Shown in pieces: positions 15,390-59,440 of a stretch of DNA of 59,588 nt. Below the pieces are notes generated by a model. That model worked only from the letters and a program-made list of their open reading frames with translations, was not told the origin of the DNA and did no database searches. The position numbers and the translations under genes were made by a program. Every line of letters starts with the position of its first letter. The first letter of the stretch is position 1. Source of the DNA: a virus; the IMG/VR virus record IMGVR_UViG_3300035195_000305, positions 1 to 59,588 of that record; one strand, given 5' to 3'.

Positions 15390-15967
15390 TACATATTATA
15401 GATAATTTTATAGATAAAGATTTATTTAAAATAGCTGAAAAATATTTAAAAAAAGGAGAGTTTATAAAACATACAGCAGGAGATAAAAATTTTTACATTC
15501 AAGAATCACCCACAACTTTTGACGATTATGTTTTAAGAAAATTAGGAATGATAGAAGGGAAGCCTGTTGAAAATATATTAAGTTTTTTTAGAGTTTCAAA
15601 TGAAGATCTTGATAATAAATGGCGTATACATTCAGATTTAAACATAGATGGTAAAAAACCTGATAGAGCTGCTGTTCTTTATATGTCTAATAGAAAAGTA
15701 GAGGAGCTTCATGGAACAGCTTTTTGGGAGCATGAAGTTTACGGAAAAAATCTTCCTGATCATATAACAGATAAAGAATACAATAGATTAATAGAAGTGG
15801 ACTCTGAAGAATTAGATATGTGGAGATTAGTTTCTGTAGCGGGTTATGAGCAAAACAGATTAGTATCATATCCTGCTAATTATTTTCACAGTAAATATCC
15901 TAATAAATCTTGGAAGGAGGGAAGAGAAGTATATGTTATATTTTATAAATATAAAAACATTAAATGA
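15386..15967 (+). CDS. 2OG-Fe(II) oxygenase
   Basis: A 193-aa protein with a facial triad His82-x-Asp84 (RIHSDLN) and His168 (YFHSKYP), plus Arg180 (GREVYVIFY) for 2-oxoglutarate. It starts with the family-typical MIHIIDNFIDKDLF. GTAFWEHEVYG at about 110-120 resembles oxygenases in cyanophages. It overlaps the GroES-like gene and the halogenase gene (ATGA) by 4 bp each, so the three are probably translated together. Substrate unknown. Confidence 0.85.
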   Translation: MIHIIDNFIDKDLFKIAEKYLKKGEFIKHTAGDKNFYIQESPTTFDDYVLRKLGMIEGKPVENILSFFRVSNEDLDNKWRIHSDLNIDGKKPDRAAVLYMSNRKVEELHGTAFWEHEVYGKNLPDHITDKEYNRLIEVDSEELDMWRLVSVAGYEQNRLVSYPANYFHSKYPNKSWKEGREVYVIFYKYKNIK

Positions 15968-17001
15968 AAAGAATTGCCATTATAGGGGCAGGTAATGCTG
16001 GATGTATAACCGCATTAGAATTATCAAAGACAGAATGTAGTTCTTCTAAAAGTGATATCACTATATATCATGACTCGAATAATTACCCTATAGAAAAAGT
16101 TGGGCAAGGTTCATTGCCTTCTTTTACTGAGCTGTTGTATGATACTTTGAATTTGAATTGGTATGATAAAAATGTTATTGATGGAACTATTAAGATGGGT
16201 ATATTATATAAAGGGTGGGAAAAAAATAAAAAAGAAATTTTTCATTCTTTTGCGATGCATCAAGCTGCAGTACATTTTACTCCCAATAAATTATCTAAAG
16301 CAGTTTTAGAATCTGGGTTATTTAATGTAAAAGAAAAAAACATTAAAAATCCTGAGAGTGAAATAGATGCTGATTTTATATTTGACTGTAGAGGAAAGGG
16401 TAATAGGGATAAAAATAACTATGAGAAAATAAGTAGTCCTATAAATGCTGTGCTTCTTGCTGCCAACTATAAACAAGGAAAAGATAGGGATTTAACATAC
16501 ACCCAAGCAGTGGCTACCCCTAATGGGTGGACATTTGTTATACCCAACAAGGATACTATATCGTATGGATATCTTTATAATAGTAAAATAACATCTACTG
16601 AAGAAGCAAGAGAAGATTTTATGAGTAGGTTTGGTATAGTGAAAATTAATAACGAACTTCCGTTTGAGAATTATGTAGCTAAAAATATGTTTGTAGGAGA
16701 AAGAACTATATTGCAAGGTAATGCGTATGGATTTATAGAGCCTTTAGAGGCAACCTCTCTTAATTTTTATCATCAATTATGTATCGAGGCTAAAAAAACT
16801 ATTTTTAACGGGGTTAATGCCAAAGAAAGTAATAGTAAGGTTAAAGCACTAATGCATAGGATTGAATCGTTTTTATTGTTGCATTATCAATTTGGATCTA
16901 AGTATAATACACCTTTTTGGAAGTATGCAAAAACATTGACTTTTAACTCTACTTTTAGTGCCGATAATTTAAGTGAATTATGGGAAAAAATAGAACCTTA
17001 A
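15964..17001 (+). CDS. Flavin-dependent halogenase (tryptophan-halogenase type)
   Basis: A 345-aa protein (most characterised members are over 500 aa). FAD-binding GAGNAG at residues 8-13; GQGSLPS at 47-53 matches the GEATIPP motif; GTIK with Lys77 corresponds to the catalytic Lys79 of PrnA; WTFVIP at 189-194 matches the WxWxIP motif with the second Trp replaced by Phe; EPLEATS at 259-265 matches the catalytic-Glu motif EPLESTS. The reduced length points to a small substrate-binding domain. It would chlorinate or brominate an aromatic compound using FADH2, O2 and halide, from an external flavin reductase not seen here. Directly follows a 2OG oxygenase gene. Confidence 0.9.
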   Translation: MKRIAIIGAGNAGCITALELSKTECSSSKSDITIYHDSNNYPIEKVGQGSLPSFTELLYDTLNLNWYDKNVIDGTIKMGILYKGWEKNKKEIFHSFAMHQAAVHFTPNKLSKAVLESGLFNVKEKNIKNPESEIDADFIFDCRGKGNRDKNNYEKISSPINAVLLAANYKQGKDRDLTYTQAVATPNGWTFVIPNKDTISYGYLYNSKITSTEEAREDFMSRFGIVKINNELPFENYVAKNMFVGERTILQGNAYGFIEPLEATSLNFYHQLCIEAKKTIFNGVNAKESNSKVKALMHRIESFLLLHYQFGSKYNTPFWKYAKTLTFNSTFSADNLSELWEKIEP

Positions 17002-54130: not shown

Positions 54131-54481
54131 TTAATCTATTAAGTTAATTTCACTAATTTGTTCTACATACTCATAAGGATCTCCTATCTCAGAATGTATT
54201 TCTCCATCTTCTCCTAATCCTATACAAAATACTCCTGATGGAATTATACCTCTATCATTATTTACTTTCTCTAACCAATCAACAATCTCTTTACACCAAT
54301 CATCTGACTCGTACCATTTAATATAATCAAATGTATAAAACTTCGTTGTATCTTCTACTATTTTTAGATAATCTCCATCCGGTTTATCTACTGGAAACTT
54401 GTGTTTCCTTAGTATGTTATCAAACTCATCTGATAATTCGCCATTTTTTACTCCAATAATTACTTTACTTCTGTATCCCAT
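54131..54481 (-). CDS. Hypothetical protein downstream of hammerhead A
   Basis: A 116-aa protein (MGYRSKVIIGVKNGELSDEFD... GIIPSGVFCIGLGEDGEIHSEIGDPYEY), acidic, mixed alpha/beta. It is the first gene after hammerhead A, which should cleave its mRNA 23 nt before the start codon. The start-MGYRSKV pattern recalls a small family of unnamed phage proteins. Function unknown. Confidence 0.68.
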   Translation of the reverse strand: MGYRSKVIIGVKNGELSDEFDNILRKHKFPVDKPDGDYLKIVEDTTKFYTFDYIKWYESDDWCKEIVDWLEKVNNDRGIIPSGVFCIGLGEDGEIHSEIGDPYEYVEQISEINLID

Positions 54482-58298: not shown

Positions 58299-58571
58299 TT
58301 ATTTCTTTAGATCTTTTTTTCCCTCTATAAATTCTTTTAATATCATCCATTCACTAACTTTTAAATCATCTGTTAGTAGTTGCCCTATTGAAGTGGCAAA
58401 ATCATAACTTATACTTTCATTTGTATTCATTATTTCTCTCCTTAATTTTGGAAAGTGTTCCGACATTATCTCAAAATCTCCATATTCAATATCTTGCTCA
58501 TCTTTCATTTTTACCCTTAAATTTCTCTTTAAGTGGTTTATTTTTTCTGAAATTTCTCTTGCTTTTTGCAT
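58299..58571 (-). CDS. Hypothetical protein downstream of hammerhead B
   Basis: A 90-aa helical, charged protein (MQKAREISEKINHLKRNLRV... ILKEFIEGKKDLKK). First gene after hammerhead B; cleavage leaves a 27-nt A/T-rich leader on it. No family recognised. Confidence 0.65.
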   Translation of the reverse strand: MQKAREISEKINHLKRNLRVKMKDEQDIEYGDFEIMSEHFPKLRREIMNTNESISYDFATSIGQLLTDDLKVSEWMILKEFIEGKKDLKK

Positions 58572-58592
58572 AATATATTTATTTATTTATTT

Positions 58593-58646
58593 GTATTAGA
58601 CTGGAAATTCTTCCAGTTTCGCATATTAAATGCTCATCAGTAATAC
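58593..58646 (-). ncRNA. Type I hammerhead ribozyme B
   Basis: Minus strand 5' to 3': stem I GTATTA (58646-58641), core CTGATGA (58640-58634), stem II GCAT-loop TTAAT-ATGC, core GAAA (58620-58617), stem III CTGGAA-loop GAAT-TTCCAG, triplet end TC, then stem I TAATAC. Stems I, II and III are perfectly complementary and the cleavage triplet is GUC (cut between complements of 58599 and 58598). It starts 4 nt after the stop of the 71-aa gene and is the same length (54 nt) with the same loop II as ribozyme A, but has different stem sequences. Confidence 0.92.
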
Positions 58647-58650
58647 TATT

Positions 58651-58866
58651 CTAAAGCCAATATAAGGTCGTTTCTAAATAGTCAGGAATGCACCAGTCGT
58701 TCGCATCCTCCTCGCTGATTTGTCCGGCTTTTTGGTAGTCATCCATCAAATTATTATATTCTTCTCTTCTTGCCGGTCGGTCTGGTATTCCATCTTGTTC
58801 GTATTGTTGTGCGATTAGTGGCAAAATCTCCATTTTAAAATAATTGTTAAATTCTTTTTGTTTCAT
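58651..58866 (-). CDS. Small hypothetical protein upstream of hammerhead B
   Basis: A 71-aa acidic protein (MKQKEFNNYFKMEILPLIAQ... PDRPARREEYNNLMDDYQKA, ending IPDYLETTLYWL). Its pattern recalls unnamed phage early proteins (ARREEYNNLMD). Its stop is 4 nt before the ribozyme; a GC-rich hairpin stands 15 nt before its start. Confidence 0.68.
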   Translation of the reverse strand: MKQKEFNNYFKMEILPLIAQQYEQDGIPDRPARREEYNNLMDDYQKAGQISEEDANDWCIPDYLETTLYWL

Positions 58867-59304: not shown

Positions 59305-59440
59305 TTTTTTGTGTATTAAATTATTATTATTTGTTTATTTCTTGGGCAAAGATAGTTTAATTCTTTTTAATAATCCTAATAAAAAACAAAGTATTTTTGT
59401 CCCAATATGAAATTAATTTGTAAGTCGTTGTTATTCAGTA
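59305..59440. other. Divergent promoter region at the right end
   Basis: No gene. It contains a minus-strand -7 (59347-59354) for the early operon and, facing outwards, TATTTTTG (59392-59399) on the plus strand, which would drive a transcript into the terminal repeat and, on a circular or concatemeric genome, towards position 394. Confidence 0.55.
59347..59354 (-). promoter_or_regulatory. Early promoter -7 element
   Basis: TATCTTTG on the minus strand, a perfect TAnnTTTG match, about 42 nt before the ATG at 59304. Likely start of the rightmost early operon (59304 to about 57481). Confidence 0.7.

Follow-up and report, generated by a model that had tools for sequence, protein, structure and literature searches.

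Hammerheads at phage gene borders

The closest described systems are the hammerhead arrays of prophages. According to the main text of Perreault et al. (2011), prophages carry multiple hammerheads on either side of single genes or short blocks of genes, phage transcripts were proposed to be processed into operon- or gene-length mRNAs, and self-cleavage was demonstrated for three such arrays in vitro and for one in E. coli (PMC3088659). The carriers named there belong to Clostridium, Azorhizobium, Agrobacterium and Legionella, together with a few phages (PaP3, Bcep176), and the main text names neither Flavobacterium nor Cellulophaga (PMC3088659). The function of phage hammerheads is a long-standing question (PMC3088659, PMC6155905).

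Here we describe two predicted hammerheads, A and B, in a 59,588-nucleotide stretch of viral DNA (IMG/VR record IMGVR_UViG_3300035195_000305; "the window" denotes this whole stretch). Both lie on the sense strand between co-directional phage genes, as in the prophage arrays, and B belongs to a known kind, since both hammerheads at prophage gene borders and the idea that they process transcripts go back to 2011 (PMC3088659). The initial annotation had taken intergenic processing of this sort in a Bacteroidota phage to be undescribed; the idea of processing at gene borders was in fact already published (PMC3088659), whereas a Bacteroidota phage set was not found in the open-access literature. 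As far as that literature shows, the new elements are the Bacteroidota set itself, its packing between stop and start codons, a rule linking loop II to the bases flanking stem I, and its presence in cultured phages. In contrast to the arrays of 2011, the hammerheads here are in Bacteroidota phages and have a stereotyped 6-bp stem I, a 4-bp stem II with a UNANU loop, and stop-to-start packing.

Two Rfam families invite comparison. RF00163 (Hammerhead_1) has the same core, open stem I and three-way junction, but A and B show no further stem I helix past the 6 bp. RF03152 (RAGATH-1-hammerhead) is the closest model, with the same core, a short stem I, CGAAAC and a long stem III, although A and B fall far below its gathering score and its upstream hairpin is poorly paired in both. 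There is also a likeness to the PeSLs of T4-type phages, which are conserved intergenic elements at the borders of exchanged genes; these are mobile regulatory cassettes consisting of a promoter and a stem-loop, with no ribozyme.

Gene setting

Relatives of the window's terminase and primase are mainly Flavobacterium, Cellulophaga, Tenacibaculum and Maribacter phages, in agreement with the initial view of the DNA as that of a Bacteroidota-type phage. The minus-strand block encodes a primase/helicase, a helicase, a Sak annealing protein, a PD-(D/E)XK protein, and VRR-NUC and DnaA-C-like proteins, and from this replication-gene content we infer that "early/replication block" is a fair name for it. 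The plus strand encodes a phage GroEL (1146-2795) and a tryptophan-halogenase-like protein (15964-17001). The features of the hammerhead regions and of the head of the block are as follows.

59347..59354, minus strand: TATCTTTG, heading the early gene block; its only minus-strand copy
58651..58866, minus strand: gene upstream of B, an ORF of 71 aa with an 85% identical homologue in locus L333
58593..58646, minus strand: hammerhead ribozyme B, type I, with a predicted cut between 58599 and 58598 (structure scan and fold)
58641..58646, minus strand: 5' strand of B stem I, GTATTA, with its partner TAATAC at 58598-58593 (sequence; covariation at all 6 pairs)
58634..58640, minus strand: B catalytic core CTGATGA (sequence; columns near-invariant in 69 relatives)
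58621..58633, minus strand: B stem II GCAT/ATGC with a UUAAU pentaloop of the UNANU class (sequence; covariation)
58620-58618, minus strand: GAA of B, with C17 at 58599 (sequence)
58600..58617, minus strand: B stem III ACTGGAA-GAAT-TTCCAGT, 7 bp with a GAAU loop (sequence; covariation)
58591..58592, minus strand: conserved AA 3' of B stem I, putative tertiary-contact nucleotides, with a partner A at 58647 on the 5' side
58572..58598, minus strand: 27-nt leader of the predicted downstream product, with its 5'-OH end at 58598 (sequence)
58299..58571, minus strand: gene downstream of B, an ORF of 90 aa
54554..54817, minus strand: gene upstream of A, an ORF of 87 aa
54499..54552, minus strand: hammerhead ribozyme A, type I, with a predicted cut between 54505 and 54504 (scan; covariance model R1)
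54131..54481, minus strand: gene downstream of A, an ORF of 116 aa that does not adjoin the hammerhead in relatives

The upstream gene of B ends in a TAG codon (58653-58651), B begins 4 nt past it, and the next ATG is at 58571, 27 nt beyond the predicted cut; both distances had been given correctly at the outset. No relatives of the downstream gene were found in viral_contigs. Hammerhead A is packed similarly, beginning 1 nt past a stop codon and leaving a 23-nt leader up to the next ATG.

Near A and B, the minus strand shows no intrinsic terminator-like site, and the region is no richer than shuffles in sigma-70-like promoters. Classical Bacteroidota promoters with both boxes were considered and rejected because they occur at chance level. 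The TATCTTTG segment at 59354-59347 resembles the Bacteroidota -7 promoter box, but the promoter signal is weak since its total count in the window (8 copies versus 5.5 expected) is near chance. We also note a perfect G6/C6 hairpin, GGGGGG-AGAAAT-CCCCCC (58900-58883, minus strand), in the gap ahead of the gene upstream of B.

Structure of the two hammerheads

Read on the minus strand from 58646 to 58593, B is GTATTA CTGATGA GCAT-TTAAT-ATGC GAA ACTGGAA-GAAT-TTCCAGT C TAATAC. It has CUGANGA and GAA in place, an A15.1-U16.1 pair, and C rather than G at H17, and in both fold and scan its topology is that of type I, with stem I open and loops capping stems II and III. Folded in isolation, the motif adopts exactly the hammerhead structure (-13.2 kcal/mol, z -2.75). 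All of the elements listed in the initial annotation are thus present on the minus strand in sequence, fold and scan; the perfect pairing of stem III also holds, although its length is 7 bp when A15.1-U16.1 is counted, not 6, giving stems of 6, 4 and 7 bp for I, II and III. By every sequence test B is a type I hammerhead ribozyme, an assignment that we regard as well supported. Hammerhead A is TATACT CTGATGA GACT-TTAAT-AGTC GAA ACTACTC-TTAG-GAGTAGT C AGTATA, and has the core, stem lengths and loop II in common with B; all of the stems differ in sequence, yet are paired in each.

In thermodynamic modelling with a 260-nt context, the probability of stem I is only 0.04 in B and 0 in A, although the energy model ignores tertiary contacts and co-transcriptional folding. 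The low values may be a warning that cutting is incomplete.

At gathering score, Rfam does not call B. A match to RF00163, proposed earlier as a check, failed to appear even at E 10 in a local search, and this reflects the model, since at gathering score only one of several dozen clear hammerheads matched across 15 array-bearing sister loci. The best sub-threshold Rfam match of both B and A is RF03152, and it is better for A (34.3 bits) than for B (27.1 bits), against a gathering score of 56.3 bits. The Rfam models therefore overlook most of the Bacteroidota phage hammerhead set. A twister-P3 ribozyme in L119 (6669-6747, plus strand), a contig that also has hammerheads, does score above Rfam gathering.

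Occurrence beyond chance

Chance resemblance in AT-rich DNA was considered as a source of the motif, and loose hammerhead patterns do arise, with 13 matches to CTGANGA-N-GAAA in the window where about 4 are expected. However, a strict structural scan of the 59.6-kb window returns exactly two type I hammerheads, A and B, with a score of 17 each, whereas 150 dinucleotide shuffles of the window give two stray matches scoring 12 or less. A non-circular control used the pattern CTGATGA-N4-TTAAT-N4-GAAA in IMG/VR, with pairing not required, and compared it with the scrambled core CTGTAGA; among the IMG/VR matches listed, all three stems pair in 74 of 115 with the true core and in 0 of 83 with the scrambled one. 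These controls and the covariation among 69 sequences count against chance resemblance; the compensatory changes at homologous sites in L333 and L105 (below) refute it and leave it a negligible probability.

Homologous sites and covariation

B is one of a large, mostly unannotated set of hammerheads at gene boundaries in related phages, and a structural scan of the fetched loci yields about 162-166 unique examples. In L333, a hammerhead, GTAATA CTGATGA GGGC-TAATT-GTCC GAA ACAGGAGA-AATT-TCTCCTGT C TATTAC, occupies the corresponding position after the homologue of B's upstream gene, and the gene downstream of it is a different one. Between B and L333, stem I changes from GTATTA/TAATAC to GTAATA/TATTAC, stem II from GCAT/ATGC to GGGC/GTCC, and stem III is replaced altogether but still paired. 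A hammerhead likewise follows homologues of A's upstream gene in L105, L128, L129/L076, L135 and L137, and the gene beyond it differs each time except in the L135/L137 pair. In L105 the one difference from A is an exchange of paired bases in stem II (GACT/AGTC to GGAT/ATCC), in otherwise nearly identical DNA, and L128 is 100% identical to A over about 91 bp, flanked by an upstream gene with 69% nucleotide identity and an unrelated downstream gene.

In an alignment of 69 sequences, 13 of the 15 pairs vary on both sides, stem I covaries at all six of its pairs, and RNAalifold arrives at the same fold without guidance; the 100% pairing in this alignment is by construction, because its members were picked by a scan that requires pairing. 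The paired changes in all stems imply selection on RNA structure and not on DNA identity.

A covariance model (R1) built on these sequences scores B at 70.8 bits and A at 68.3 bits, both being among its 69 training sequences, and finds 14 hammerhead copies in one 22-kb record (G020), one of several contigs with many copies. R1 matches 10 of the 14 near records that were picked for their primase identity; among the four without a match, L137 has a hammerhead variant visible by eye. The hammerhead is also absent from the junction homologous to A's in L125, L126 and L198, and together with the four near records lacking a match this indicates that it is not essential.

A signature in loop II

Where loop II is of the UNANU type, the 6-bp stem I has an A on both sides in 123 of 123 hammerheads, versus 17 of 39 with other loops (p 6e-17). 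Taking one hammerhead per locus and class gives 83 of 83 versus 12 of 25 (p 2.5e-10), and leaving out TTAAT gives 36 of 36 versus 17 of 39 (p 1e-8); the bases flanking stem I played no part in selecting the hammerheads. This coupling suggests a tertiary contact between loop II and stem I, which we propose from the sequence pattern. The main text of Perreault et al. notes that contacts of this kind speed hammerheads at low Mg2+ (PMC3088659); the one proposed here would involve an open-ended stem I, and no loop closing stem I was seen. Neither a distal stem I helix past an internal loop nor a pseudoknot between loop II and the stem I flanks occurs in excess, and both were rejected. The R1 model and the UNANU-loop/A-flank rule together offer a means of finding the overlooked set.

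Placement and proposed role

With genes called crudely, 115 of the 150 hammerheads fall in intergenic space, compared to 17.5% for random sites, and in 100 of those 115 cases both neighbouring genes are on the same strand. Median distances are about 0 to -1 nt to the preceding stop codon and about 19-20 nt to the next start. Among 19 homologous pairs, 12 have only the upstream gene in common, four only the downstream gene and three both, a comparison of few pairs that are not independent; the hammerhead keeps its upstream gene more often than its downstream gene, as A and B do in their homologous sites, which fits a function at the 3' end.

We consider it probable that B is a type I hammerhead that cuts a polycistronic early mRNA after C17, between the two ORFs, and the earlier proposal of an intergenic processing site between co-directional genes is well supported as a prediction. 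B would fold while the polycistronic RNA of the early (replication) gene block is being made, its open-ended 6-bp stem I probably being stabilised by contact between the UNANU pentaloop and the flanking A and AA, and hammerhead biochemistry predicts cleavage after C17. The upstream mRNA would then have a defined 3' end right past its stop codon, made of hairpins II and III and a 2',3'-cyclic phosphate, and the downstream mRNA would have a 5'-OH end and a short, A-rich and unstructured leader of 27 nt. The likely consequence would be separate stability or decay, and separate translation, of the two mRNAs.

More tentatively, hammerheads that combine an open 6-bp stem I, bordered by A and AA, with a 4-bp stem II whose UNANU loop would bind it could form a distinct subclass, serving Bacteroidota phages as a standard device at gene borders instead of internal terminators and promoters and linked to the upstream gene as a 3'-end cassette; we consider this possible but doubtful. 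If it were true, the subclass would cut each early mRNA free right past its stop codon, and the ribozyme would tend to travel with the upstream gene during gene exchange.

Other roles for the conserved sites have to be weighed against processing of the transcript. The hammerhead could be mainly a conserved patch of DNA for recombination at gene borders, with RNA cutting secondary, and several of the observations above are of the kind this predicts: the short identity between A and L128 amid diverged or unrelated flanking genes, the varied genes that follow A's upstream gene and hammerhead in L105, L128, L129 and others (and likewise with B and L333), and the homologous pairs that have just one neighbour in common. 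However, the downstream neighbour is kept in 1 of 16 pairs where both members have a hammerhead and in about 3% where one does, and the same upstream families keep it in just 9% of cases (n=210) when the hammerhead is absent. Since retention is low in the matched control too, gene shuffling is general at these borders, and we make no claim that it is specific to hammerheads. The paired changes in all stems point instead to selection on RNA structure, and we judge a primary role in recombination unlikely. A degenerate or inactive relic, retained as a stable pair of hairpins forming a terminator-like 3' end or without function at all, would account for the weakness of stem I in longer context and for a cultured relative, elemoF, with two mismatches in stem II. 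It is disfavoured because a function of the hairpins alone would not require the (nearly) invariant core and A/AA flanks or the covarying stem I seen across the 69 sequences, and its probability is very low.

It is just as improbable that the released gene-length RNAs undergo re-ligation to circular or spliced mRNAs, whether through the ribozyme itself or through an RtcB-type ligase of the host. Stem I is common to 31 of 93 within-locus pairs that differ in stems II and III, compared to 2.8% between loci, and this counts in favour of re-ligation since joining different cut ends in the reverse reaction would depend on a common stem I. But recombination between copies can also yield a shared stem I, the stem I sequences of A and B in this window differ, and the main text of Perreault et al. 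reports that circular or spliced products were sought and none found (PMC3088659). Processing of the early transcript thus remains our preferred reading.

Sharing of stem I within a contig (33%) is seen in L002, L007, L104, L123 and others. A 5' hairpin formed after cleavage by the freed stem I strand was rejected as a general feature, with 23 cases of 5-6 bp seen and 19 expected from shuffles. Such a hairpin is striking in a few groups (L002/L120 and L011/L066/L069/L089), and in L011, L066, L069 and L089 its loop holds a Shine-Dalgarno-like AGGAG (TATAGC-aataggag-GCTAT).

Hammerheads in cultured phages

Two groups of cultured phages carry the element. The Flavobacterium "elemo" phages score 58.2 bits with R1, in a segment common to 68 records, and Cellulophaga phage phi18:3 scores 36.6 bits, both independent of training; phi19:3 is also a carrier. 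Stem II is GGTT/AACC in elemoB and GACT/AGTC in elemoA_7-9A, a paired change, and elemoF_6-3D (L340, MT497071, ~744-805) has GACT/AACC with two mismatches, a natural broken form. The elemoF_6-3D sequence has the look of a recombination product of the other two elemo types, with the exchange inside loop II. The stem III sequences of phi18:3 and phi19:3 are wholly different, and each is paired. Since the carriers are cultured phages with cultured hosts, and include the elemo variant with a broken stem II, function can be tested by RNA end mapping.

The phi18:3 hammerhead (L342, 1003-1061, minus strand) lies between gp050 and gp049, a few genes ahead of ArdA. Hammerheads adjoining ardA are likewise noted in the main text of Perreault et al. 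(PMC3088659).

Variants of loop III and stem II

About 15% of the relatives have inserts of 22-96 nt in loop III, as in L008, L138 (366-461), L156 (1125-1214), L114 (3351-3437), L035, L152 and L129 (5455-5555). Some of these are alike across distant phages, with TAACGAATAAG...GGTAAA in one form and ACAAACCACGTTGGTAGAT in another. They are possibly extra structured or ligand-binding domains; the one aptamer-like insert examined (L138) has no Rfam match. A stem II variant with an AA bulge, GTA-aaGGTttaaacACC-TAC, recurs in distant phages (L094, L114, L140, L148, L154, L161 and L173), and a similar bulged form is present in L137 at ~576-700.
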